A program made the translations under genes and the position numbers. 31,708 nucleotides of DNA from a virus: positions 1-31,708 of IMG/VR virus record IMGVR_UViG_3300030116_007057; one strand, written 5' to 3'. Below are positions 2,643 through 31,291 of the stretch, one piece after another; the first letter of the stretch is position 1, and each line of letters opens with the position of its first letter. The notes beneath the pieces were generated by a model. It did not search any database, was not told the DNA's origin, and was given only the letters and a program-made list of their open reading frames with translations.

Positions 2643-3678
2643 AGAGCAAAAAAAGTTTATAGACGAAAATGCTACTAAAATCAAAAACTTAATTGATTTG
2701 ACTAAGCAGTGTTTTCAAGATGACACTTTAGATGGCAGATCTAAACAGGGCCGCGCTGTCAGAAAGTATTTAGTTGAGAATTGTATTGATTACAAAACAA
2801 CGGGTCGTGAACAAGTCGAAGCCATAGAACTAACACAACAACAAAAGGATTTTATACTTGAGCAAGCCGAACAAGGCTTGTCATCGCTTGAAATAGCAAA
2901 AATAATATTTGCCGATAGGCAAGTCAAGCCGCTATCAAATGAGCAAAGGACAGTATTAGCATACATTAGAGAGATAAATCCCGACATAATGCCATCACAA
3001 GACAGTGGTGCGCTGCATTCATACATTGCACCAAAGTCTACGAGTAGAATCATCAAAAAAATCAATGATGCCACTGGTCTAGGCTTAGATGACTCTAAGA
3101 TTAACAGGCAAACGCAAATTTGTATTGAAAAGTTAGGGGTCAATTTGAACAACTCGCGTTTTTTAAAAATAATTAATAATTATTTAAATGAATCAGATAG
3201 AGTTCTTTTTGAGCATGAATTTGTTAGACTGACTTGGGATAAGCCAGACCTAACTGCGGATGAGATAAATTTATATCTCAACGCATGCAAGGAAGTTATC
3301 AACCTTGAGGTTATAAGCAGTCACTTGAATAAACTTAACGATATGTTTGACGTAGCTGATGATCAAACAGATATGAGCGTTAGGTTAGCTGAGATAATCA
3401 AAGCAAAATCACAAGAATATCATCAATGCGAGACTAGAATAGAAAACCTAACTAAAAAGCTTCAGGGTGACCGTGCCGAGCGAATGAAAAAGTCTCAGAA
3501 AGAAAATGCATCATTTCTTTCGATAGTGCAACTCTTCCAAGAGGAGGAGGAGCGCAAAAACATGATTAGAATCGCTGAGATGCAAAAATTAGCGGTCAAA
3601 GAGGAGTCTGAAAGGTTAGAGGGTATGGCTGAGTGGAAAGCTAGAATTTTAGGCATAGGACCAAACGATGTCATTTAA
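2626..3678 (+). CDS. Protein with tandem HTH-like repeats and C-terminal coiled coil; candidate small terminase
   Basis: The product has about 350 residues; ATG 2626 and ATG 2629 are both possible and TTG 2623 is less likely. The N-terminus has two related copies of a segment beginning ELSEEQKKFIDENA and ELTQQQKDFILEQA, each followed by a helical stretch; in the second, LSSLEIAKIIF looks like a helix-turn-helix. The C-terminal third (IENLTKKLQGDRAERMKK, then EEEERKNMIRIAEMQKL) is strongly predicted by eye as coiled coil. DNA binding plus oligomerisation, two genes upstream of the large terminase, fits a small terminase subunit, but no family match can be claimed. It overlaps the sigma-like gene by 17 bases and the next gene by 11. 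Confidence 0.65.
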   Translation: MMELSEEQKKFIDENATKIKNLIDLTKQCFQDDTLDGRSKQGRAVRKYLVENCIDYKTTGREQVEAIELTQQQKDFILEQAEQGLSSLEIAKIIFADRQVKPLSNEQRTVLAYIREINPDIMPSQDSGALHSYIAPKSTSRIIKKINDATGLGLDDSKINRQTQICIEKLGVNLNNSRFLKIINNYLNESDRVLFEHEFVRLTWDKPDLTADEINLYLNACKEVINLEVISSHLNKLNDMFDVADDQTDMSVRLAEIIKAKSQEYHQCETRIENLTKKLQGDRAERMKKSQKENASFLSIVQLFQEEEERKNMIRIAEMQKLAVKEESERLEGMAEWKARILGIGPNDVI

Positions 3679-12917: not shown

Positions 12918-14048
12918 TTATGAGGAGAATTCGAAAGCTGGATCTGTGTTAGCTCCGCTCATAAACAAACCAACACTAGATTCATCTATTCCTCCAACTT
13001 GAGTTGAAAAAGTTAAATCTACAGTTTTATTAGATCCAATAGACGATGACATACTCTCACTATCAATTTTAAGACCTTTTAAAGTGTAGGTAACAACGTC
13101 ATTTCCAGATTTATTTTTTAATGTAACTGAAGCATTTTGAACTCCTGAAGTTAAAGTATTAGCAAGGTTCATATCTGTCTCCTCATTAACCAACGCGCTA
13201 ACAGACATGCTCACATTAATTGGAAAATCAACTTCACGAGCGAATGGGAATCTGCTTCCTAATCTTTGTAATGGGCTTCTTGAAAGAGGCATATTTATTG
13301 AAACACTTTGTACGTGTGCTCCATTTTCTCCAGCGGATAAATTAGCGACAGTCTCTCCGTCAAGATTTGTTAAACTAACTGATATATCTCCTGGGCGTAA
13401 AGCTTTAATATCACTTACACCCTGCGAAGGCGTAGGTAGTTTAACTACTTTGGTCTCTGCGGTTCCGTCCTCTTGATCAACTGCTGGGCTGTTAACAAAT
13501 TCACCACCAGCTGTACTAGCATCAGAACGCACGTTTGCACCTTCCATACTTACAGATACCGTTGGAATAGATCCAACTGCTAAATCAACAGTGTAATCAC
13601 TTACATAGCAGTTTCCTACACCAATACAACTATGATTAGTGCCAGTTGTTGCACCATTTAAATCTTTACCTTCTGGACCTGTTAAAATAAAAACGTTTTT
13701 GCCAGAACTTGCAATCATGTGTCCTGAAGCAAATTGTGAATCAGTAGCCCTCTTACCGCCTCCAGTTCTTACGTAAAATCCTAAAAGTCTCTCATTAAAT
13801 CCATCAGTTAAATAATATGAAAAGTCCGTGCTAACTGTCGGCGCATCCATTATTACTGAATCAATTCTAGAAAGATCTCCAAATTGGTTAATGTCCTGTC
13901 TGTTAATGGTGTAACTAAAGTTAGCGCTTTGCACTCTCTCTATTTGTTGGACATCTGCCGCAGCATCGGGTCCAACCTTTCCTGTTGAGGCTGCGTCATG
14001 ACTTACAAAAAGTCCTTCTGATTGATAAATTACTCTGTTTCTGGCCAT
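12918..14048 (-). CDS. Putative tail tube-type structural protein
   Basis: The product has 376 residues, beta-rich and high in Ser, Thr and Gly. It is paralogous by eye to the tail protein at 25739-27331. Matching blocks are VQSANFSYTINRQDINQFG with VQNASFSIAFPHEKSKQLG, IGVGNCYVSDYTVDLAVGS with AAFGNCFLTSYGLTYGVNS, and AHVQSVSINMPLSRSPLQRL with SHLVQSLDMSVALQRVSNYG. The shorter gene at 23942-24757 shares the general pattern. As the one nearest the neck genes and without inserts, it is the best candidate for the major tail tube protein. It is the last gene of a minus-strand block, ending at the bidirectional terminator. A CTGTAA word lies 20 bases before its start. Confidence 0.65.
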   Translation of the reverse strand: MARNRVIYQSEGLFVSHDAASTGKVGPDAAADVQQIERVQSANFSYTINRQDINQFGDLSRIDSVIMDAPTVSTDFSYYLTDGFNERLLGFYVRTGGGKRATDSQFASGHMIASSGKNVFILTGPEGKDLNGATTGTNHSCIGVGNCYVSDYTVDLAVGSIPTVSVSMEGANVRSDASTAGGEFVNSPAVDQEDGTAETKVVKLPTPSQGVSDIKALRPGDISVSLTNLDGETVANLSAGENGAHVQSVSINMPLSRSPLQRLGSRFPFAREVDFPINVSMSVSALVNEETDMNLANTLTSGVQNASVTLKNKSGNDVVTYTLKGLKIDSESMSSSIGSNKTVDLTFSTQVGGIDESSVGLFMSGANTDPAFEFSS

Positions 14049-14096
14049 AATATAAATTCTTTACTTTGTTTACAGTTTTAGTTGAAAAATATGAAA

Positions 14097-14945
14097 TTAG
14101 TTAAATCGGAATCTGTGTTTGTGTATATCAAAATCTATAAAACCCACGTACAATTCGTGTGCTAATGATTTTCTATCTCTATCGGTTAATTTAGAAGTTC
14201 TAACTGAATTTACATAAAATCCTTGTTCTGATGAATAAGAATCTACAAATCCAGTATAATTATATGAGCCGCCTTTTAAATCTCCTAACTCTGTAATTGG
14301 ATATCCAGTCATAGGTAACTCTGTAATATCCTCATCTCTTGAGTCTGCAAAAATAGATAAAATGCCATCCAGTTGATATGTATCTTCGGCTAGGATGACA
14401 GCTTTTACTGAGCATTGTGTCTCTTGCATGCCACCAAGAGCATAAGGTCTATTTTCCATAGTTGCAGTAGATATAAAAACAGCTGGCACAACATCATCAT
14501 ATGGGGCTATAGCATCCTCAGCGGGTGATGGCAGTCTTGAATTGACAACATATTTGTTTTCTATAACTAAATCCTCTTCAGTATCATTAGTGATATATAC
14601 ATTAAAATCTTTTACTGCGAACTCTCCAGTTACTGTTAAATTCGTAGATGAACCTGAGATTAATGACCTTCCATTGTCAAAATCCAAAACAACGCCATTA
14701 TCTCTACCTGAAAAAGATCCACCTATAAAAACTCCCGATGGAATGTTAGCTCCTGAGATTGAGGAATCTGTAACCCATTGTTTATAAGCACTACCATAAG
14801 CTTTATAAGTAGCATCAAGCCTATCATCTGCATAATAAAATAGCTCCCCTGTTTTATTACTGAAAGCCTCCCCTTTAGTTAATAAAAAATTATCAAACCA
14901 GAGAAAAAATGATGTTGTTAAATTATGTTGAAATTGTGCTTTCAT
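14097..14945 (-). CDS. Neck or tail-completion protein, function unassigned
   Basis: The product has 282 residues. It begins with helical, aromatic-rich sequence (FQHNLTTSFFLWFDNFLLTK) and continues with mixed beta sequence and acidic loops (DSRDEDITELP), ending in a basic-aromatic tail. Its start overlaps the stop of the upstream 15523-14942 gene by four bases (ATGA), so they are translated together. The block order (three small proteins, then a tail-tube-type protein) resembles the head-closure, tail-completion and tail-terminator genes of long-tailed phages. Which of these roles it plays cannot be read from the sequence. Confidence 0.6.
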   Translation of the reverse strand: MKAQFQHNLTTSFFLWFDNFLLTKGEAFSNKTGELFYYADDRLDATYKAYGSAYKQWVTDSSISGANIPSGVFIGGSFSGRDNGVVLDFDNGRSLISGSSTNLTVTGEFAVKDFNVYITNDTEEDLVIENKYVVNSRLPSPAEDAIAPYDDVVPAVFISTATMENRPYALGGMQETQCSVKAVILAEDTYQLDGILSIFADSRDEDITELPMTGYPITELGDLKGGSYNYTGFVDSYSSEQGFYVNSVRTSKLTDRDRKSLAHELYVGFIDFDIHKHRFRFN

Positions 14946-15523
14946 TTTAAATTTTGAAATCTTTTTTCATATTTCCTTATAAATGATGATATATAAGCGG
15001 TATTTTTAAACCTACCGCCCCTTACTTTTACACGACTTTGTAGCGCAACGCCTGATCTACCTTTGCCTTTTTTTCTTAAAAGGAAGCCTAAACCAGAAAT
15101 TCCTGTCTCTATACCCTGCGCCCAACTTCTGCCAATCGCCCAAGGCATCGGGGTTATTGAGAATATTTGTTCTGCTGTAGGTAGTGTTACAGTAAAAACT
15201 CCTCCAACTTTATTAGTTTGTTTTAATTCTTTTAAATATTGTAGCTGGGTTCTTTCTAAAGCATTTAATATCGGGGCTATCGGTTGATCACCAGAATCAA
15301 AACCTATGAAAGCAAACAGGCTAGTAACTCCACCTAATGTTCCACTTATGTTTGGGGCATCAGGGCCACCTAAAAGTTCTTGTGTTACAGGAAGGCTTAA
15401 AAACTCCTGTATCATTTCTTTTTTAATCTTTTTAAATTTGGTGTTTATCTCCTTTTTTAAAGCAGATTTACCAACCCTAGGCACTTGATTTTTTATTGCA
15501 TTCTGTACTTCCCTATCAACCAT
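14942..15523 (-). CDS. Putative tail-completion protein
   Basis: The product has 193 residues. The N-terminal third is basic and helical (SALKKEINTKFKKIKKEMIQ). The middle contains a Gly/Pro-rich MPWAIGRSWAQGIETGISGL segment, and the C-terminus is strongly basic (GRFKNTAYISSFIRKYEKRF). Basic, HK97 gp10-like neck and tail-completion proteins have this general character, but no motif proves it. The ATG lies two bases after the stop of the upstream gene, and the stop overlaps the downstream start by four bases, so it sits inside a tightly coupled operon. Confidence 0.6.
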   Translation of the reverse strand: MVDREVQNAIKNQVPRVGKSALKKEINTKFKKIKKEMIQEFLSLPVTQELLGGPDAPNISGTLGGVTSLFAFIGFDSGDQPIAPILNALERTQLQYLKELKQTNKVGGVFTVTLPTAEQIFSITPMPWAIGRSWAQGIETGISGLGFLLRKKGKGRSGVALQSRVKVRGGRFKNTAYISSFIRKYEKRFQNLK

Positions 15524-15525
15524 AA

Positions 15526-15996
15526 TTACTCATCAATCGGGGTAAGCAAAAAAGTAAAGAACCTATTGCTTGTTAGCCCTCTAGGTTTTCCATCGCTCTT
15601 TATTGCAAATTTTCTGCCATCAAATTCAACCCTTCTAGCCTCTCTTATGAAGTTATATGCGGTTTCTTTCACAACCATTTTTACGCTGCCGTCTGGCAAA
15701 ATGACTTTATTTTGCGTACCAACCTGCCCAGTTCCAGCTTCGTCAGCGAGATATTCTTTCTCTAAGTCAACATAGTATATTCTAGCATCGAAAGTGTCTG
15801 AAACTGTAGTGTATTCAACTGAAGTATTAGAACCTGTATTCGTTCTCCTATAGAGAGAGTTCCAAGAAGTAGTTGATGCTATTAGTGTTTTTTTAGCATT
15901 TTTATATACAGTTATAGTTTGGGCAAATGTCGTATGAAGCGTGTCTGCCAAACTATTAATTTTATTTATTTGATTTTCAGATAAAAACCCAGCCAT
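15526..15996 (-). CDS. Putative head-closure or neck protein
   Basis: The product has 156 residues. The first 45 are helical (ENQINKINSLADTLHTTFAQ); the rest reads as mixed beta, with EYTTVSDTFDARIYYVDLEK and TQNKVILPDGSVKMVVKETA, ending in FFTFLLTPIDE. Small proteins that bind the connector and begin the tail often have this layout, but the assignment is positional. It is the first gene of the minus-strand block. A GTGTAA motif on the minus strand (16010-16005) stands eight bases before its ATG, and a TATAAATA word lies slightly further upstream (16021-16014). Confidence 0.6.
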   Translation of the reverse strand: MAGFLSENQINKINSLADTLHTTFAQTITVYKNAKKTLIASTTSWNSLYRRTNTGSNTSVEYTTVSDTFDARIYYVDLEKEYLADEAGTGQVGTQNKVILPDGSVKMVVKETAYNFIREARRVEFDGRKFAIKSDGKPRGLTSNRFFTFLLTPIDE

Positions 15997-18113: not shown

Positions 18114-21100
18114 ATGGCAGCAGAAATACCAGGAAAATTTGTAGGACTAGAAAAAAGCATTCAAGATGCAGCTAAAAACGCGGGCAGAAATCTCAAGATT
18201 AATTTAGGGACAAGCGCTAGAAGCATAGAGGCTTTATCTCAACCATTAGGTAGAATCACAGGAAGGGCTGATGAATTTACCAAGTCAATGGAAGCTGCTA
18301 ACGCTCGTGTTTTAGCTTTCGGTGCTTCTGTTGGAGTTTTAAGAAGTGTCACAAATAGCTTCAAAGAATTAGTTGCAACAACAATTCAAGTTGAAAAGCA
18401 GATAGCTAGCATAAATGCTATCTTGGGCGCATCAACTGGGGAGCTAAATAAATTTAAAAAAGAAATTTTTGATGTCGCTAGAAATACAGAGCAATCTTTT
18501 GAAACAGTTTCGACTGCTGCATTAGAATTAAGTCGTCAAGGTTTAGCTGCCGAGGAGGTTGTTAAAAGATTAAATGATTCTTTGATTTTAAGTAGATTAT
18601 CTGGACAGAGTGCGGCAGATGCGGTCGCTGGACTTACTTCAGCGATAAACGGTTTTAAAAGTGCGGGGATTACAAGTACTCAGGTAGTTAATAAATTTTC
18701 AGAAGCTGCTAAAAGTGCAGCGGTGTCAGAGAGAGACTTGGCTGAAGCTTTCAAACGAGCTGGAGCTGTTGCTGGACAGGCAGGAGTAACATTTGATGAA
18801 CTTGTTGGTATTGTTAGTGCTGTTCAAGAAAAAACTTCTAGGGGTGGATCAGTTATAGGTAACTCATTCAAGACAATTTTTACGAGAATACAAAGTCTTG
18901 AAAAACTAAACACTATGCAGACTTTAGGAGTTCAAGTTACTGATTCTGCTGGAGAGGTTTTATCTGCGACAAAAATTATACAGAATTTAGCAGCTGTCCT
19001 GCAATCCTTTCCTGATGCAAGGAGACTTCAGATAGCTGAGAACTTAGTGGGTAAATTCCAAGTTGCTCCATTTATATCTCTTTTAGAAGACTACAATGAC
19101 GAAACATCAAAAGCTATAAAAATAACAGAAATTTCTGCTAATGCCACAACAGCTGCTTATGAACGTAACACTGCTTTAAATCAAACTCTTTCTGCTGCAA
19201 TAAATCAAGCTACAGTAAATGTAGAGCAACTTTTCGACACTTTAGGAAAAATAGGCGTTACTGACAATTTACAAAATATTTTAGGATTTTTTAATGACTT
19301 AGTTGAAGGTTTAAGAGGTTTATTAGATGAAGAAACTGGAAGTAACATAGCCAAAGGTTTAGTAAAAGGCATAGGTAATGTAATATCTGGACCTGGGTTA
19401 GCTATCTTTGCCGCTATCATTGGTAAACTAACTAAAGATCTTGTTAGCTTTGGACTCGGCTCCATGAGGACTTTCTTTGGTTTGAATAAAGCTGCAAAAG
19501 AACAAGCTGCCGTACAAGGTCAGATAGCCTCGACCCTTTTAGGAAACTCTGATATCCAAAAAAGAATTCTAGCTATAGAAAATTCACAATTATCAACAGA
19601 GCAAAAGAAACTCGCACAGACTAAGTTTTTTACCACCGCTCTTAACGAGCAGTTGGCTGTAATGCAGAGAATGCAGAACATAGCTAGCCGTGTAGCACCT
19701 GGAGTGATAGCAGGTACAAGGGCGCGTAGAGGAGCTGGAGGTTACATCCCTAACTTTGCTGGAGGATCAGCATTCGGTTCAGAGCAAGCCGATATAAATC
19801 GCGGTGTTGGTGGTGCTCCTCGTTCAGCTAGACCTGTTACTATACCTAATTTTAATTTTGGTGGCGGCCAGCGTGGCACAATGGTTGCCAATACAAGTGA
19901 ATTTATTGTTCCTAATTTTGCTGGAGGTTCTGCTATATTTAATCAAAACATGGCGGCATCCATGGGACTTCCAGCTGGAGCTAGGCCAGTCGGAGCGGCT
20001 GGAGGTTATATCCCTAATTATGCATCATACATAGTAAACAATGTGAAATATAGTGGTGCTCAAATAGGCCGCGCCATTAGAGATAAAAAAATAACAAAAG
20101 AGCAAGCCACTAAAGCTGGATATGTTTCTACAGAAGACGCTAAAAAAGCGGCCTCAAAAGCTGTAGGGGCTGATGCCGTAAAAAATGGCATTTTAAGTAT
20201 GGACGCAAATCATTTAGGTGTCCTGTCACTTTTCGCTGGCAAAAAAGCTGCTTCAACAAGTTTAACTTTATCTGGTGCAAAAGTATCTCAGACAAATCCA
20301 GGTGTCAAAGCTCTTAGAGCAATGGGCGTAAACCAAGTTGCTTTAAATAATATTCAGCTGCAAAGCGTGGATAATATGAGAAAGGGTTTTAGTCAAACAA
20401 GGAACAGACAAAAAATAGCTCAGTATTTTACTAAACCTTTGGTCCAATATGGATCTATGTTATTAGGGGGCGCTTTTAAAAATGATGAGCTTAGAGGGGC
20501 TAGATCTAAACTAGCACAATTAGCTAGAAATAAAAGCTCAGCAGCTTTATTTTCTACATCAGGAGAGGGCGCTATATTTGAATCAGCTGTAAATATAGTT
20601 ACAAAGGGCGCAAAAGCAATAAGAGATTTTACAGATACTGAAAGTGAAAGAGCGCCATTCGATTTTGAAGAGGGAGGTAAGGCTGATCGTCAATTTAGAA
20701 AGACTTTTGGTTTTGGTGATAATTTAAGAAAAGCTGAAGCAAAAAGAACTGCCAGCGACTCGGCTGTTCGCACTTTAATAACAAAAGCTTTAAATGATTC
20801 ATTAGAAAGAGAAAAAATATTAGCAAAAGCTAAAAGCATAGGATTTAAAAAACGAGCTGCATCTGGTTATATACCTAACTATGCTTCTAGTCCTTTAGAT
20901 AACGCTATCAATAGGGAAGTCGCAGCTGGCCTTCCTATCAACCAGATAAGAATAAATCAAAAAGGCACACTAAGAAACTCAGCAAACCCAATGGGTCTCG
21001 CTGTCACTAATACTAGAGATGAGCCTACTGGGGCTATTCCTAGTTTCGCAAAAACAATAGTTCCAAAGAAGAAACCTGGATCTGGATCTGAATTAGAGCA

Positions 21101-23942
21101 GCCTACAAGAGATTTACTTGGTACTATTTTTGCAGTGCAAGCTGGATTTTCTCTTTTGACTGGTGCTACTAGTGATGTAGAACAAGGTTTTGGTAAAGTT
21201 GTAAATCAGATATCTAATTTTGCTGGCACTATTACCACTGGAGTTTTTGCTGGCACAGCTTTAAAAGATTTTGGAAGATCCTTAGAAAGCACTAGACCTA
21301 GACTTGGTGCTTTTACTAAAGGTTTAGGTACTTTATCCATAGCATTAAGTGCGGTAACTGCTGGATTCAATTTATTTAGAGAAATATATAAAGATCAGAC
21401 AGGCATAACAGATAGTACCAATGTTGTTATGGCTAGGTTGGCTGATTCTGCTGAGAACGCATCAAGGAGATTATCAGATTTAAGCAACGTTGACCAACGA
21501 CTACTTCAAAATGCTGTTAGAGATTTGTTAGGGTCAGATAGAACGCAAGATACGGCTTTAGCTGCCTTGGGAAGAGTTTTCGGCAAACCAATGAACGAAG
21601 GTCTGTTAAATACAGGTCTAATAGTTTCAGAAACTCAAACGAAACCTGGACAGGTTATAATAGACCCAGGTATGACTGAGGCAATTCAACAAACCTTTTT
21701 AGATGCGATGGTTGAAGGAATTGGTGCTCCTCAACTAAAAGACGCTTTAAGGCTAGCTGCAAAAGGAGGAGCTACAAAGGAGTTTTTAAGTGAAACAGTC
21801 AGAAGTGGAACTTTTCCAGCTGAAGTAGAAAAGGTAAGAACAGGTAGGGGTAGAAGAGGGACAGAAGTGTTTAGAAACGTATTTGAAATTTTAAGCGATA
21901 AAGAGTTAGAAGAATTTGAGCGAAGAGTTGAGGATTTGCGTAAAGGGGTAAGAGAAAATAATAAAAAAGAGGGAATAGGCGGTACAGATCCTGAAACTGA
22001 AAGAATACTAAGAGAGCAAAAAGCTTTAAGTATAAATAGACTTAGGCGTTTTGGTTTAAGTGTGCGTGAAAGAAACTTAACAACTCTTAGCCCCGCAGAA
22101 ATGACTCAAATGCGAGGGAGGGCAGGATTAGTAGGAGGTGCAGGAATATCTGCTGCCAACATAGCTGTTAACACTCAAAGATTTCAAGAAACAGCAATAG
22201 ATGATCTTATTAAAGGTTTAGAACAAGCTATAGAAAAAAGCCCAAGCCTTAATGTTGATCCAGCGAAAATTCAAGATGGCATAGACGATTTATCTAAAAA
22301 TTTAACATTTGATGAAATAAAAACTGAGTCGGGAATAGCTAAGGTCATAAGTGGATTTTTAGAGGCATCTGGATTGAAACCATTAGATGTTCCAGGAACA
22401 AAAGGTGAGGAACTAAACTTACTTGCTAAATCGCTTTTTGAAGCTCAAGAACAAAAAAGATTATTGAAGGAGGGTAATAATGTATCAGAAAAAATAAGAC
22501 GAGCATTGGAACTAGGAGATGCATCAACAGCCGCTGGTAAAGCTGCTATTGAGGCTAAAAACGCTCTTGAAGGTGGTCAATTGCAACTAAGAGCACTTTC
22601 AACTGCTGGAGCTTTTGGTCGATTAAGAGCTAAAAGTGAATTAGATCTTACTACAGCAATTAGAGATTCTGGCAATAATGTGCTTTTACAAAGACAAGCT
22701 AATGAAGCTAAGGCTTTACGGGATACTTTAATAAGTGCATCTGAAACGTTTGCTGATAATATAGCTAATGGTTTAGTGGATGCTATTGTTCAAGGCAAAA
22801 GCTTAGGAGAGGTTTTAAGGTCTGCTGCCACAGATTTTTTCACTATGATGTCAAAAGCTTATATGCAAAAGGCTGTTGACAGTATAGTAGCTGGTGACGG
22901 TGGTGGCGGTGGTATAATGGGATTTGTTGGAAATATGTTAGGCATTAAACTTAACAGTGGAGGTATGATAAGAGGTGGCTCTGGAACTAGAGATGATGTT
23001 CCCGCTCTACTAACTGGTGGAGAGTTTGTCATGAGAAAAAGTTCCGTGAATAAATATGGAACTGGATTTATGAGTGCTCTAAACCAAGGAGCTATTCCAA
23101 AGTTTGCTAACGGAGGGATGTTTGTCCCAGGAAGTTATGGACAAGGTGCAATCAGAGGAAAATCTGATTTGCTAGGATTTGCAACTCAAACTGGAACCTC
23201 TACAGCGGCTGACAGAATGGTCAGTGGAGCTAATTTTGCAGCCATAGCTTTAGCGCCTGAAAGTATTGCAATGACGAGCTTGGGCAGATCTATGAGTCCA
23301 GCCTTCAAGAGAACTCAAGAGGCTAAATCTCAAGCATTTAGTTTATATGTACAACAACTACAAGCAGACGAACAACGTAGAGAACAGCTTAGAGAAAGAG
23401 AAAGACTTAAAAAACAACAAAGCAGAGGATTACTTGCGTCTCTTGGAATGGCCGCTTTAAGTGGTTTTGTCTTTGGAGGAGGAATGGGAGGTATAGGTGA
23501 AAAATTTAAAAATATTTTTACAGGTCAAAAGACCACAACTAATGCAGGAGATATTGCGTATGATACCGCTAATAGATACCCAATGGGTGGTATGATTCCA
23601 TACATGGCTGGTGGAGGTGGAGTTGGTTACGCCGCTGGTGTTGACACTGTTCCAGCAATGTTATCTGGTGGTGAATTTGTAATGAACGCTGCTGCAACCT
23701 CAAGAATTGGGGCATCTAATTTACAAGCTTTAAATTCTGGAGCTTCTATGGGAAGTGGTAGCACCTCTATAACTAAAGGAGATACCAATATAAATATAGT
23801 AGTTAATTCTAATGGATCTGTTAATCAAAATGCTTCAGCTGATGCAGGGGCTGCTGATAAAGGTTTAGCGGTAAGATTAAAGGACGCAGTAAAAGGAGTT
23901 CTTGCTGAAGAAACAAGATTAGGAGGAATGCTCTCAGCTTAA
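18114..23942 (+). CDS. Tail tape measure protein with internal nuclease-like domain and GYIPNFA-type repeats
   Basis: The product has 1942 residues, the largest in the window; its length sets tail length. Residues about 120-325 match the conserved phage tape measure region (STAALELSRQGLAAEEVVKR; EKTSRGGSVIGNSFKTIFTR). Hydrophobic segments occur near 415-445 and 1010-1090. Seven copies of a motif like GGYIPNFA lie at about 543, 577, 597, 630, 917, 973 and 1659. Between the fourth and fifth is a 280-residue segment with Glu823, Asp850 and Glu875-x-Lys877 spaced like a PD-(D/E)xK nuclease core. The C-terminus has two copies of the common VPALLTGGEFVM-type block. AAAAGG precedes the ATG. The nuclease reading is inference. 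Confidence 0.92.
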   Translation: MAAEIPGKFVGLEKSIQDAAKNAGRNLKINLGTSARSIEALSQPLGRITGRADEFTKSMEAANARVLAFGASVGVLRSVTNSFKELVATTIQVEKQIASINAILGASTGELNKFKKEIFDVARNTEQSFETVSTAALELSRQGLAAEEVVKRLNDSLILSRLSGQSAADAVAGLTSAINGFKSAGITSTQVVNKFSEAAKSAAVSERDLAEAFKRAGAVAGQAGVTFDELVGIVSAVQEKTSRGGSVIGNSFKTIFTRIQSLEKLNTMQTLGVQVTDSAGEVLSATKIIQNLAAVLQSFPDARRLQIAENLVGKFQVAPFISLLEDYNDETSKAIKITEISANATTAAYERNTALNQTLSAAINQATVNVEQLFDTLGKIGVTDNLQNILGFFNDLVEGLRGLLDEETGSNIAKGLVKGIGNVISGPGLAIFAAIIGKLTKDLVSFGLGSMRTFFGLNKAAKEQAAVQGQIASTLLGNSDIQKRILAIENSQLSTEQKKLAQTKFFTTALNEQLAVMQRMQNIASRVAPGVIAGTRARRGAGGYIPNFAGGSAFGSEQADINRGVGGAPRSARPVTIPNFNFGGGQRGTMVANTSEFIVPNFAGGSAIFNQNMAASMGLPAGARPVGAAGGYIPNYASYIVNNVKYSGAQIGRAIRDKKITKEQATKAGYVSTEDAKKAASKAVGADAVKNGILSMDANHLGVLSLFAGKKAASTSLTLSGAKVSQTNPGVKALRAMGVNQVALNNIQLQSVDNMRKGFSQTRNRQKIAQYFTKPLVQYGSMLLGGAFKNDELRGARSKLAQLARNKSSAALFSTSGEGAIFESAVNIVTKGAKAIRDFTDTESERAPFDFEEGGKADRQFRKTFGFGDNLRKAEAKRTASDSAVRTLITKALNDSLEREKILAKAKSIGFKKRAASGYIPNYASSPLDNAINREVAAGLPINQIRINQKGTLRNSANPMGLAVTNTRDEPTGAIPSFAKTIVPKKKPGSGSELEQPTRDLLGTIFAVQAGFSLLTGATSDVEQGFGKVVNQISNFAGTITTGVFAGTALKDFGRSLESTRPRLGAFTKGLGTLSIALSAVTAGFNLFREIYKDQTGITDSTNVVMARLADSAENASRRLSDLSNVDQRLLQNAVRDLLGSDRTQDTALAALGRVFGKPMNEGLLNTGLIVSETQTKPGQVIIDPGMTEAIQQTFLDAMVEGIGAPQLKDALRLAAKGGATKEFLSETVRSGTFPAEVEKVRTGRGRRGTEVFRNVFEILSDKELEEFERRVEDLRKGVRENNKKEGIGGTDPETERILREQKALSINRLRRFGLSVRERNLTTLSPAEMTQMRGRAGLVGGAGISAANIAVNTQRFQETAIDDLIKGLEQAIEKSPSLNVDPAKIQDGIDDLSKNLTFDEIKTESGIAKVISGFLEASGLKPLDVPGTKGEELNLLAKSLFEAQEQKRLLKEGNNVSEKIRRALELGDASTAAGKAAIEAKNALEGGQLQLRALSTAGAFGRLRAKSELDLTTAIRDSGNNVLLQRQANEAKALRDTLISASETFADNIANGLVDAIVQGKSLGEVLRSAATDFFTMMSKAYMQKAVDSIVAGDGGGGGIMGFVGNMLGIKLNSGGMIRGGSGTRDDVPALLTGGEFVMRKSSVNKYGTGFMSALNQGAIPKFANGGMFVPGSYGQGAIRGKSDLLGFATQTGTSTAADRMVSGANFAAIALAPESIAMTSLGRSMSPAFKRTQEAKSQAFSLYVQQLQADEQRREQLRERERLKKQQSRGLLASLGMAALSGFVFGGGMGGIGEKFKNIFTGQKTTTNAGDIAYDTANRYPMGGMIPYMAGGGGVGYAAGVDTVPAMLSGGEFVMNAAATSRIGASNLQALNSGASMGSGSTSITKGDTNINIVVNSNGSVNQNASADAGAADKGLAVRLKDAVKGVLAEETRLGGMLSA
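19731..20024 (+). repeat. First cluster of IPNF/IPNY motifs in the tape measure gene
   Basis: Four of the seven protein motifs fall here: GGYIPNFAGG (543), TIPNFNFGG (577), FIVPNFAGG (597) and GGYIPNYAS (630). The remaining copies are at 20859 (SGYIPNYAS), 21030 (GAIPSFAK) and 23088 (GAIPKFANGG). They are repeated in the protein rather than as exact DNA repeats. Confidence 0.85.
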
Positions 23943-24757
23943 TGTTTGGCACTAAATTAAATTACGATTCAAGATTATTTCTAGAGGGCGAAGAGGTCTC
24001 TGGAATAAATACTGTTGATTTTTCGTATTCTAATTCTGCAACAACTGTAAATCCACTAGGTTTTAGCGATGGATTAACAACTATCAATGGAGAAACGCGA
24101 CAAAGTTTTTCTTTTACTAGAGATTTAGTTTACAAATCGATTGTAGCTTCTGGAGTTGGTGGTAGTAGTTCTTTCACTGGATCTAATAACTTATCAGGTA
24201 GCATTCATTACAATGGAGAGTCTTATGGATTTCAAAGTGGATACCTTAACAACTGGTCAATAAATTGTGCCGTTGGAGCGCCTGTAAAAGAAACTTGTTC
24301 TTTTGTTGTTTATGATGACATGAGAAGTGGCGCGAGTGCTTCAGGTTCTGCTACAGCACCAAGCTTGAGCATACCAAGCCAAGGCAGTATTACTGCCACA
24401 TGCGACAATAGCACCACTAATAGAGTCATAGGATTTGATTATGCAGTTACTTGTAATAGAAAGCCTTACTATTCAATAGGTAATAAGCTGCCCACAGAAG
24501 TTAAATTTATACCACCGATAAGCGTTACCGCTGCGGTTCAAGTAGAGGTTGATGATGCTTTTATGGAAAGTGGTAGAAATTTTTTAGAAACAGGTAAAAG
24601 CAGTAGAACAGTTAGTTTAAAAGTGAATGGCAGAAATGGCGGCCCAACTCTTGTTGATGCATCAGTGCCTAATGCTTGTTTAGTAAGTGAATCTTTAAGT
24701 GCATCTTCAGATGGAAGTTTAAGGTTAACTCTTAATTATATGGGGCATACATCATGA
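23942..24757 (+). CDS. Putative tail protein, tail-tube-like paralog
   Basis: The product has 271 residues, beta-rich. The N-terminal block VDFSYSNSATTVNPLGFSDG, the block NNWSINCAVGAPVKETCSFV and the following strand pattern parallel the proteins at 12918-14048 and 25739-27331 (compare YGLTYGVNSLPIVTTSYVAS), so it probably shares their fold; similarity is weaker than between those two. It starts within the tape measure stop (TAATG) and overlaps the next gene by four bases (ATGA). In this position long-tailed phages encode distal tail or tail-tip proteins, many of which share the tail tube fold. That role is inferred. Confidence 0.6.
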   Translation: MFGTKLNYDSRLFLEGEEVSGINTVDFSYSNSATTVNPLGFSDGLTTINGETRQSFSFTRDLVYKSIVASGVGGSSSFTGSNNLSGSIHYNGESYGFQSGYLNNWSINCAVGAPVKETCSFVVYDDMRSGASASGSATAPSLSIPSQGSITATCDNSTTNRVIGFDYAVTCNRKPYYSIGNKLPTEVKFIPPISVTAAVQVEVDDAFMESGRNFLETGKSSRTVSLKVNGRNGGPTLVDASVPNACLVSESLSASSDGSLRLTLNYMGHTS

Positions 24758-25737
24758 GTACTTTAACAGGATTAGAATCAGAAAACTTACTTTATAATAG
24801 AGATAGAAATATTTCTGGGGTCACTGCGCCAACACATTTTACTGGTTTAAGTTTAACACCAATTTATGGATCGACAGCGCAGTTTCAATCTAAATTGAAC
24901 ACTTTTATAACTGATGACTTTTACTATGAACTTGTGCCTTTATCTTTGAATAGTTTAGTCGTTAATTTTAATGTGGGTTATCAAACTGATGAAACCAACG
25001 CTAGAAAACTAGCTAACTTTTTTGAAAGTAAGTCTGGGTTTTTACCGATGGAGTTTAATGCTGACAATTCTGGAATATATAAAAATGTAACTGGATTTTG
25101 TAATTCTTATCAAGTAACAGCTGAGAATAACCAAAACTTCAATGTAGCAGCAGCGGTTACAATCGACACAGCTCCTAATCTTTTAAATTGGTCAGGTAAT
25201 AATTTTACAAATATAGATTTCCAAAACTGGGTTCCGTCTAGAGCATATAAAAAATATGATGTTGTTTTTTCTGGCGTTAACACAAACAACTTAAACAATT
25301 TCTTTTATTGCACTGGAGATCACACTTCATCCTCTGCTAACAGCCCAACTGGTGCATCAACTAATTGGACTCAAAAGTTTTTCTTTGAGCCTGATCAAAA
25401 CCAAAATTTTGAAGTGGGTATAAAATCTGATGTTGTTGAATTTAACAACTCTTTTACTCAGAGGCTAGGTGGAGATAAAAATACAAAAAATATAGCTAAA
25501 TTTGACATAGCTTATAACTTTACCAACATATCTAATCATCAGCTAAAGTCCATGTTGCATTTTTTAGAAAATAAAGCTGGCTATAGGAGGTTTGAACATC
25601 AAATACCATCGGTTTATAACAGGCCAAAAGTTTATTATTGTCCTGCTTGGACACATACTTGGGTATATAGTAACACAAATAATTTAAGTGTAAACTTTGT
25701 CGAAGATCCGTTAGGCGTAATTCCAACAGAGGTTTAA
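24754..25737 (+). CDS. Lambda gpM-like minor tail protein, duplicated, with a CBM-like insert
   Basis: The product has 327 residues. Residues about 57-141 and 228-320 are two related copies of a module: a strand like VVNFNVGYQTD or FDIAYNFTN, a helix ending in LANFFESKSGF or LHFLENKAGY, then Phe, Tyr and Cys landmarks. The second copy, with YYCPAWTHTW and VNFVEDP, is the better match to the phage minor tail protein M family, which joins the tail tip. Between them, residues 158-207 (NWVPSRAYKKYDVVFSG; FYCTGDHTSSS; TNWTQ) resemble a CBM5/12-type carbohydrate-binding module. The ATG overlaps the preceding stop by four bases. Duplication and insert are read by eye. Confidence 0.75.
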   Translation: MSTLTGLESENLLYNRDRNISGVTAPTHFTGLSLTPIYGSTAQFQSKLNTFITDDFYYELVPLSLNSLVVNFNVGYQTDETNARKLANFFESKSGFLPMEFNADNSGIYKNVTGFCNSYQVTAENNQNFNVAAAVTIDTAPNLLNWSGNNFTNIDFQNWVPSRAYKKYDVVFSGVNTNNLNNFFYCTGDHTSSSANSPTGASTNWTQKFFFEPDQNQNFEVGIKSDVVEFNNSFTQRLGGDKNTKNIAKFDIAYNFTNISNHQLKSMLHFLENKAGYRRFEHQIPSVYNRPKVYYCPAWTHTWVYSNTNNLSVNFVEDPLGVIPTEV

Positions 25738-25738
25738 A

Positions 25739-27331
25739 ATGTCAAGAGCTATAATACAGAGTCAAAAAGCAATAGTCGCCGCAAGTAATGATACTGGATC
25801 ATTTAAAACGACTAATATTGATTTAAATTTAATTAATAATGTTCAAAACGCCAGTTTTTCTATTGCCTTTCCCCATGAAAAATCAAAGCAATTAGGGAGA
25901 CAGGACTTCAGTATCGATAACACTTTTATACAGCCAGATGTAGAATTAACCTTATCATACATACCAGAGCCTAAATTACAAAATGAGATAAATAGTAATT
26001 TTATAAGTGGGGGTAATTCTTATACCACTAGCGTTCAAGCTCTTGCTGGTTCATTACCTAAAAATACTAATTTTTTAATTATAAATAGCCCCGATGATGG
26101 CAAAGATGCGCTAGATTCAGTTACAGTTGGTGGATCAGCGGTGGACCTCACTGGTTTTGAAGCTGCTGCTTTTGGAAACTGTTTTTTAACTTCTTACGGA
26201 TTAACATATGGCGTAAATTCTTTACCAATTGTTACCACTTCATATGTGGCATCAAACGCAAAATTTGAAAAATTAACTGGCACTAGTATGGAATCGCCAG
26301 CCATAAATTTACTTCAAGGCAATAACAATAACGTAGGGCTTCTAAACTTTACTTTTGATAATGGCATTAAAGATCCAAAAGTTTTAACACCAAATGATCC
26401 TAATAGCTCTATATCGTTTGAAAACTTACAAGTAGGAGGTCAAGCTATTTCTGGCAGTCATTTAGTTCAATCTCTTGACATGTCGGTGGCTTTACAAAGA
26501 GTTTCTAATTACGGTTTTGGCAGTGATTTTTCTTATGATAGAAAAGCTGAAATGCCAGCTGATGGATCATTTTCTATATCATCATTAGTATCAGGTTATG
26601 GAAACGGTAACATAACTGGTATATTAGATACTGAACAAACTTATGGTTTTGACTTAGTTTTAGGAAGTGAAAATCCTAACATGCTTGCGTTCTCAGAACG
26701 TTTTAGCCAATGGTCATTGCAAGACTCTGACGGCCCTATGTCAATAGTAAGCGAAAATAATGCTGATCCTAACGGTGGAAATAATGCGACTTTATTTAGA
26801 GCTAATACTACTGATGCTTATGCACTTCTATTTAGTAGTAATTCTAGCGATGTAAAATATATATTTGTCGAGGCAGGTAAACCCTATACTTTATCAGCAT
26901 TTGCTAAAGGTAAAGGTAGCACTATTGGTAAATCATTTAGATTACAAATTTGGTTTGGTGTTGGAACTGCAACAGGTCCATCAAGTGTTGGACTTTTTAC
27001 TCTCACAGATGAATTTCAAAGGTTTGAGATTACTGGAACTCCAACTGGATCTGGCAGTATAGCTGTAAGGTTCGATATAACAGAGCCTTCAGACCCAGCT
27101 GATGAGGTTTTTGTATTTGGGGTGCAGTTTGAACAAAACAATAAGGCTACTCAATATCTTAAAAACGATGGTAATAAAGATCCTAAATCAATAAAATACT
27201 CAATATCTAATGCTAGGTTGCAATCCTATAGTTCATCTTTGCCAGTGAATGGCAGGATGTCTTTTGATGCTTCGTTTACATTCCCCGTAAATGAAACTGT
27301 AGGGCTTGCATTAAGCGGAACGATTTACTAG
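25739..27331 (+). CDS. Tail-tube-like protein with an inserted carbohydrate-binding-like domain
   Basis: The product has 530 residues. Residues 1-310 and 480-530 align by eye with the 376-residue protein at 12918-14048. Between them lies an extra module (about 312-476) with the hallmarks of a carbohydrate-binding, jelly-roll type domain found in phage structural proteins: NMLAFSERFSQW at its start, AGKPYTLSAFAKGKG, FQRFEITGTPTG, and VFGVQFEQNNKATQYL at its end. The module probably projects from the tail and may bind cell-surface sugars. The start is one base after the gpM-like stop. The stop overlaps the convergent minus-strand gene within a CTAG palindrome. It is the last gene of the tail operon, with no hairpin terminator visible. 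Confidence 0.7.
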   Translation: MSRAIIQSQKAIVAASNDTGSFKTTNIDLNLINNVQNASFSIAFPHEKSKQLGRQDFSIDNTFIQPDVELTLSYIPEPKLQNEINSNFISGGNSYTTSVQALAGSLPKNTNFLIINSPDDGKDALDSVTVGGSAVDLTGFEAAAFGNCFLTSYGLTYGVNSLPIVTTSYVASNAKFEKLTGTSMESPAINLLQGNNNNVGLLNFTFDNGIKDPKVLTPNDPNSSISFENLQVGGQAISGSHLVQSLDMSVALQRVSNYGFGSDFSYDRKAEMPADGSFSISSLVSGYGNGNITGILDTEQTYGFDLVLGSENPNMLAFSERFSQWSLQDSDGPMSIVSENNADPNGGNNATLFRANTTDAYALLFSSNSSDVKYIFVEAGKPYTLSAFAKGKGSTIGKSFRLQIWFGVGTATGPSSVGLFTLTDEFQRFEITGTPTGSGSIAVRFDITEPSDPADEVFVFGVQFEQNNKATQYLKNDGNKDPKSIKYSISNARLQSYSSSLPVNGRMSFDASFTFPVNETVGLALSGTIY

Positions 27332-30319: not shown

Positions 30320-31291
30320 ATGATTTTCGAAGAACAAATATCAAGGAAGCCCGACCATTATCCATGGGCACAAGAATTTATTGAGGCAATGCACAACGGT
30401 TTTTGGACCGACAAAGAGTTTAGTTTTAGCAGCGATATACAAGATTTCAATGTAAACTTAGACTCAGAGGAAAAAGAAATTATTATCAGAACACTTTCAG
30501 CTATTGGACAGATTGAGGTAGCCGTAAAGAAATTTTGGAGTAAATTAGGCGATAATCTGCCTCATCCTAGCTTAACAGACTTAGGCTATGTCATGGCAAA
30601 TGTTGAGGTAATTCATAACAATGCTTATGAAAGATTACTGAAAGTTTTGGGTCTTGAAGATGTCTTTGAGAAAAATCTAGAGCTTGATTTTATTCAAGGC
30701 AGGGTAAACTATCTTAGAAAATATAATCATAAATTTTACAAAGATTCAAAAAAGCAATATGTGTATTCGATTATTCTTTTCACGCTTTTTGTGGAAAATG
30801 TTTCTCTGTTTTCGCAGTTCTATATTATTAACTGGTTTAATCGTTATCGGAATATTCTTAAAGATACTGGACAGCAAGTCAAGTATACTCGCAATGAAGA
30901 AAACATTCATGCGTTGGCTGGGATCAAAATAATCAATACGATTAGAAGCGAGCACCCAGAATTATTTGATGATGAATTAGAAGCTAGAATAGTACATGAA
31001 GCTCAAGAGGCTTTTAAAGCTGAAAGTAAAATTGTTGATTGGATGATCAACGGCTTCAATGAAACAGGTCTTAACGGTGATATCTTAAAAGAATTTATTA
31101 AAAATAGAATAAATGACTCTTTAGAAAAAATAGGGTTTTCTTCTGCATTTAATGTTGACACTTCTGTTTTAGAAAATACAATGTGGTTCGAGGAAGAATT
31201 GATGGGCAATAATGCTACTGATTTTTTTCATTCTCGACCTGTTGAATATTCTAAAAACTCACAGACATTTGACGCAGACGATCTATTTTAA
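30320..31291 (+). CDS. nrdB: Ribonucleotide reductase class Ia small subunit
   Basis: The product has 323 residues, a normal length for this subunit. The six metal ligands can be placed: Glu66 (in IGQIEVAV), Glu96 and His99 (VEVIHNNAY), Glu159 (LFVEN), Glu194 and His197 (EENIHALAG). Tyr103 lies four residues after His99, as the radical tyrosine does in the family. The first ligand is Glu, where E. coli has Asp. The C-terminal tail ending TFDADDLF would dock on the large subunit. It generates the radical that lets NrdA reduce ribonucleotides to deoxyribonucleotides. The stop shares one base with the next start (TAATG). It begins a new plus-strand operon. Confidence 0.95.
   Translation: MIFEEQISRKPDHYPWAQEFIEAMHNGFWTDKEFSFSSDIQDFNVNLDSEEKEIIIRTLSAIGQIEVAVKKFWSKLGDNLPHPSLTDLGYVMANVEVIHNNAYERLLKVLGLEDVFEKNLELDFIQGRVNYLRKYNHKFYKDSKKQYVYSIILFTLFVENVSLFSQFYIINWFNRYRNILKDTGQQVKYTRNEENIHALAGIKIINTIRSEHPELFDDELEARIVHEAQEAFKAESKIVDWMINGFNETGLNGDILKEFIKNRINDSLEKIGFSSAFNVDTSVLENTMWFEEELMGNNATDFFHSRPVEYSKNSQTFDADDLF

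Follow-up and report, generated by a model that had tools for sequence, protein, structure and literature searches.

Enzyme domains in the tape measure proteins (TMPs) of phages are mostly known as cell-wall hydrolases. The TMP of mycobacteriophage TM4, with its peptidoglycan hydrolase domain (PMC1796659), shares with the locus described here an enzyme domain embedded in the TMP, but the substrate of the present module would be nucleic acid, in the cytoplasm, and not the cell wall. Contractile injection systems have TMP-related effectors with divergent, swappable domains, one of which acts on nucleic acid and has an immunity partner (PMC13277306). The Sle1-type effectors of actinobacterial contractile injection systems resemble our case in their TMP-like carrier and in their divergent swappable domains, including the nucleic-acid-acting one. 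Their variable domains are C-terminal, one with an immunity gene, whereas those described here are internal and lie in a phage TMP. Sle1-type effectors are also marked by being encoded next to Sle2 in a contractile injection system cluster, whereas the DNA analysed here is a phage record in which terminase and minor tail genes are present. Polyvalent proteins (Iyer et al., 2017; PMC5512222) are large single polypeptides, thought to be injected with the phage DNA, that combine several enzyme domains, and GNAT and lysozyme domains occur both in them and in the TMPs considered here. TMPs are mentioned 0 times in the paper on polyvalent proteins; our case has a TMP as the carrier, a slot with GYIPNFA peptides at its ends, and modules that replace one another at that site.

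The window (the whole stretch of 31,708 nt that was analysed) encodes a TMP of 1942 aa in a single open frame at 18114-23942 (+). The protein matches the Pfam family PhageMin_Tail (PF10145, 5.2e-28) over aa 120-313 (18471-19052) and is also matched by several PHROG tape measure families. A Kyte-Doolittle scan identified a hydrophobic segment at aa 419-437 (19368-19424), conserved in relatives and possibly a membrane span, and two further segments at aa 1001-1019 and 1070-1088 (21114-21377). A sequence-only reading of the window had placed a nuclease-like segment between two GYIPNYA motifs of this protein, and this layout is confirmed: GGYIPNYA starts at aa 630 (aa 630-637, 20001-20024) and SGYIPNYA at aa 917 (aa 917-924, 20862-20885). 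The module between them spans aa 638-916 (~280 residues, 20025-20861) and has the hydrophobic segment of aa 419-437 before it and those within aa 1001-1088 after it. An extra copy of the motif, GGYIPNFA, is found upstream at aa 542-549 (19737-19760).

Members of the PD-(D/E)xK superfamily are recognised by a GxxFE helix, by the order and spacing of E...D...(D/E)xK, and by a following helix with Lys or Gln. The module shares the Glu of the GxxFE helix, the Asp, and the (D/E)xK strand with a Lys- or Gln-bearing helix after it, but differs from solved or catalogued members in having no profile or fold match to them and in its location inside a TMP. The residues named in the sequence-only reading are in place (E823 in EGAIFESAVNI, D850 in ERAPFDFEEGG and E875-A-K877 in RKAEAKRTA). 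Conservation of these positions in homologs was one of two tests that the reading had proposed, and within a family that diverges strongly they are what is conserved best. Among 85 segments from related TMPs, G819, D850 and K877 are each kept in 85/85, position 823 is Glu in 81 and Asp in 4, and an Asp followed by (D/E)xK, in that order, is found in every segment. The ExK noted earlier needs correction in its detail: the position is kept, with Asp at 875 in 59 segments and Glu in 26, so that most relatives have DxK and the motif is still (D/E)xK. The GxxFE motif, from G819 to E823, lies at 20568-20582, D850 at 20661-20663, and E875-A876-K877 at 20736-20744. The superfamily's acidic residue in the first core helix, usually Glu, corresponds to position 823, which is in a predicted helix. 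K891 (20784-20786) belongs to the helix that follows the (D/E)xK strand, and 68/68 rows of the alignment of non-redundant members have Lys or Gln there (56 K, 12 Q). In that alignment, columns 823, 850 and 875 alone are ≥95% acidic.

The rest of the module is poorly conserved. Identity among the 68 non-redundant relatives is mostly only 15-25%, and the family falls into 11 groups at E < 1e-15, so that ~11 divergent families occupy the slot. Spacing varies from 18 to 37 between E and D (E-x17..36-D) and from 19 to 36 between D and (D/E)xK, and the signature pattern is thus not a copied block. The conservation of these residues rules out a chance resemblance to the PD-(D/E)xK signature, and we regard it as strong evidence for a predicted PD-(D/E)xK-type active site in the module.

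Structure prediction agrees with the signature in part. The AlphaFold2 model of aa 631-923 (68-row alignment) has a mean pLDDT of 83.9 and a pTM of 0.75. E823 lies in a helix (model residues 185-205), D850 at the edge of a short strand, just before it, and E875-x-K877 (model residues 245 and 247) in a strand (243-249) that is followed by a helix (252-264). A model of the compact relative L044 (36 rows; pLDDT 80.7, pTM 0.76) has the same order of elements, with the strand at model residues 154-157 and the helix at 163-177. The (D/E)xK motif thus sits in a core strand with a helix after it in both models. Both place N-terminal strands, in an antiparallel meander, ahead of the catalytic helix. 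The predicted topology is unusual, with no beta-1 strand between the helix and the Asp, and differs from the canonical alpha-beta-beta-beta-alpha-beta arrangement.

Fold and profile searches did not connect the module to any described family. No significant match, to a restriction endonuclease (REase) fold or otherwise, was found for the window model using Foldseek (PDB, BFVD) and VIA-align, or for the L044 model using Foldseek (PDB) and VIA-align; the best rows were unrelated helices or small GTPases. Pfam, PHROGs and NCBIfam scans, run for the window module and all 68 relatives, gave nothing significant (a weak match to DUF5633, at 0.011, is below cut-off), and a sequence profile of the module found no match among PDB chains. 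Comparison by hhalign with an alignment of 20-odd Mrr_cat proteins collected from genomes gave a probability of <1%, which is not significant. Thus, the earlier PD-(D/E)xK reading is upheld by residue conservation and by the surrounding secondary structure, but the proposed REase fold is not confirmed, neither of the two models having given a structural match. The module represents a candidate new family of PD-(D/E)xK-like enzymes that stands isolated in sequence.

We identified relatives of the segment and of the TMP that carries it. A scan with the window segment recovered two viral contigs (72% identity in L003 and 41% in L004), and a search with the resulting three-row alignment recovered 17 loci, down to 29% identity, in which the segment sits in a long ORF and mostly between two PNF/PNY motifs. 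The TMP N-terminus recovered 80 TMP loci, several of which share a contig or are near-identical and thus represent fewer independent phages. In nearly all 80, motifs of the form G-[FY]-[IV]-P-N-[FY]-A occur from ~aa 620, 160 to 340 residues apart. Clustering of the inter-motif segments placed 85 in one family, with one member per clustered TMP. Seven of the 80 loci end ahead of the slot, and in the 73 complete slots the module was found in 73, 70 by clustering and three (L053, L054 and L060) by inspection. In these three the second motif is a variant; L053 and L060 were read and carry the same signature, and the motif positions of L054 match those of L053. A scan of viral contigs with the motif pattern alone gave 79 stretches, and 78 ORFs were read. 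The TMP N-terminus is present in 67 of these 78, a direct match to the module profile in 58, and several of the remaining ORFs show the signature residues on inspection; matches of the HMM of cluster C1, which caught a conserved TMP linker, were left out here. Two more distant TMPs from genome bins (L104 and L105) have the motifs without a PD-(D/E)xK-like module.

Homing endonucleases and inteins are recognised by an empty-site allele or by self-splicing, and 0/73 complete slots are empty. On the count of empty sites, an intein or simple insertion is rejected. The module stays in frame with the TMP and is translated with it. In a set of 50,697 phage records, tblastn of the module in three versions, and of one P-loop module (see below), gave no match, and relatives of the TMP N-terminus reach only 20-28% identity; thus, no cultured model is at hand. 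A literature search for tape measure protein together with restriction endonuclease-like found nothing relevant. A search for 'IPNFA' returned no relevant paper, most subscription papers being outside the search, and an earlier description is possible.

The module varies between phages whose tails are otherwise closely related. The TMPs of L062 and L063 are 99.6% identical in the N-terminus and 21% in the module; the corresponding values are 96.4% and 20% for L027 and L088, and 89% and 19% for the window and L071. Among pairs with 80-85% N-terminal identity, the modules are <35% identical in 80%. In a blastn comparison of the window with L071, homology stops at 20023, the last base of a 20-nt match to the left motif, and restarts at 20864, one base ahead of the match to the second motif. 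For the boundary analysis, DNA coordinates were assigned to 70 of the 73 complete slots and to the window, giving 582 swapped pairs that are not independent of one another. At the left edge, homology ends 12-30 nt into the motif in 86% of the pairs, and exactly at nt 20 in 182. At the right edge, the start of homology falls -12 to +10 nt from the motif in 57%, with the rest mostly inside the flank. Such a sharp edge shows exchange of whole units at the slot, without placing the crossover in the motif DNA itself. Synonymous variants are mixed among the motif codons, which indicates that the motif is kept as a peptide.

Other kinds of segment occur between the same motifs. A P-loop module (YIYDSDR...GPAGSGKST; AAA_29 at 0.0029, below cut-off) is present in L062, L072, L075, L089 and L098-L100. 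It precedes the nuclease-like module in some TMPs and follows it in others, indicating that the units are reordered between phages. Further motif-bounded segments, at aa 915-1137 in L064 and at TMP ~aa 1080-1400 in L078, L080, L086, L087 and L089, look by eye like a kinase or aminoglycoside phosphotransferase (glycine-rich loop, VxVKK, DLHGSNY and IDxG); a Pfam kinase match to these segments was not found. Segments with a Glu/Asp/ExK pattern (GRRFE..VDGF..LLEVKAG or GEID..VDF..ESK) were seen in L063, L078, L086, L087, L095, L191 and L224. These may be additional PD-(D/E)xK domains, in which case some TMPs would carry two nucleases in tandem. One inter-motif segment of L104 has a weak GNAT match (0.005), and several motif-bounded segments of L104 and L105 are of no recognised kind. 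Between the L062 and L063 TMPs, a phage lysozyme domain (PF00959, 7.9e-20) is likewise exchanged for a GH19 domain (2e-9), at aa ~1900-2250 and ~2230-2650 of the two proteins. The window TMP has one recognised module, and its relatives have two to four, most of them recognised by motif only.

On balance we consider it probable, with some reserve, that aa 638-916 constitute an exchangeable PD-(D/E)xK-type nuclease that would be displayed or delivered in the cytoplasm at genome entry. We predict that a metal-dependent nuclease module of this type occupies an exchangeable slot in the TMP bounded by the GYIPNFA peptides. The TMP would precede the DNA through the tail and insert in the host inner membrane via the hydrophobic segments that flank the slot. 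The module could then be shown on, or released to, the cytoplasmic side as the DNA enters, where it may cut nucleic acid (of the host, a resident element, a competing phage or a defence-associated kind) and so aid the incoming genome. We infer the membrane topology, delivery, target and nuclease activity of the module; the flanking hydrophobic segments, together with parallels in phages TP901-1 and lambda and in the injection systems, suggest that it would reach the cytoplasm and cut nucleic acid there. In the TMP of TP901-1 the stretch between two hydrophobic regions is predicted to be cytoplasmic, although a membrane role for such regions is described by the authors of that work as unproven (PMC5099701). 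The lambda TMP touches inner-membrane proteins during injection (PMC13190303). A point against delivery is that a folded domain of ~250 residues must cross the tail lumen, presumably unfolded. That the module is obligate and yet extremely divergent points to an arms race, or to targets that differ.

Other explanations must be weighed against this one. The module may be another metal enzyme, such as a hydrolase, whose fold is different and possibly new and which happens to use Glu, Asp and (D/E)xK, as could be argued from two good models that found no fold match, from the unusual N-terminal meander and from the missing beta-1 strand. We think this unlikely given the order and spacing of the residues, the GxxFE helix and the next helix with Lys or Gln, all of which are features of the PD-(D/E)xK superfamily. 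It is quite unlikely that the module is a nuclease whose activity precedes assembly and takes place in the producing cell (for example, degradation of host DNA, or trimming of DNA late in infection), the virion carrying it passively. The TMP is indeed made in the infected cell, and the timing of activity is not fixed by the present data, but a protein that is packed into the tail tube and then ejected would be an odd fusion partner for such a task, for which separate nuclease genes would do, and no immunity or inhibitor gene co-varies with the module in the one pair of genomes compared.

A degenerate, non-cutting nuclease fold that holds or guides the leading DNA end, or that anchors the TMP in the tail, would account for a module in every complete slot, as expected of a structural part. 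What is seen, however, is that the catalytic positions are the most conserved and the remaining surface is unrecognisable, and a structural part would be expected to show the reverse; the module is also swapped between near-identical tails, and we consider this explanation very unlikely. Least probable, and highly improbable by our estimate, is that the modules are selfish homing cassettes whose nuclease cuts TMP genes with another version and so spreads in mixed infections. Cassette exchange among related phages is indeed sharp, but modules that do not look like nucleases occupy the same motif intervals, a motif conserved as a peptide with mixed codons provides no fixed DNA target, and one nuclease module is retained by every phage.

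Returning to a nuclease that would act at genome entry, a broader and more tentative proposal is that in a large uncultured phage lineage, which we assume to be mostly marine, the TMP serves as a standard injection carrier. Its GYIPNFA slot would always hold one nuclease, with optional P-loop, kinase-like or other modules, and each of these phages would possibly possess its own set of first-strike effectors, entering together with the DNA. If true, many phages would arm the injection machine against cytoplasmic threats ahead of all phage gene expression. With its short peptide boundary, the slot would be easy to search for in uncultured phages, and the boundary would also be useful for testing whether the TMP of a laboratory phage can carry other domains.

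A gene co-varying with the module, as an immunity partner would, was sought in the L062 and L063 pair only, over 29.5 kb, and none was found beside the module. The aligned stretches of the two contigs are mostly 91-99% identical. They differ in the variable TMP segments and, outside the TMP, at positions 3176-3437 and 24106-26387 of the L062 contig. An ORF of 239 aa (L114; 25655-26374 of the L062 contig) lies in a stretch that is absent from the near-identical L063 contig.

Elsewhere in the window, a block of four genes on the minus strand (12918-15996) separates the head genes from the plus-strand genes that precede the TMP. A Pfam match was found for neither of the two genes of the block that were tested, and at least three of its genes have counterparts in L003 and L004. 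Near the end of the window, at 30320-31291 (+), we identified a gene for the small chain of ribonucleotide reductase (PF00268, 3.6e-48).
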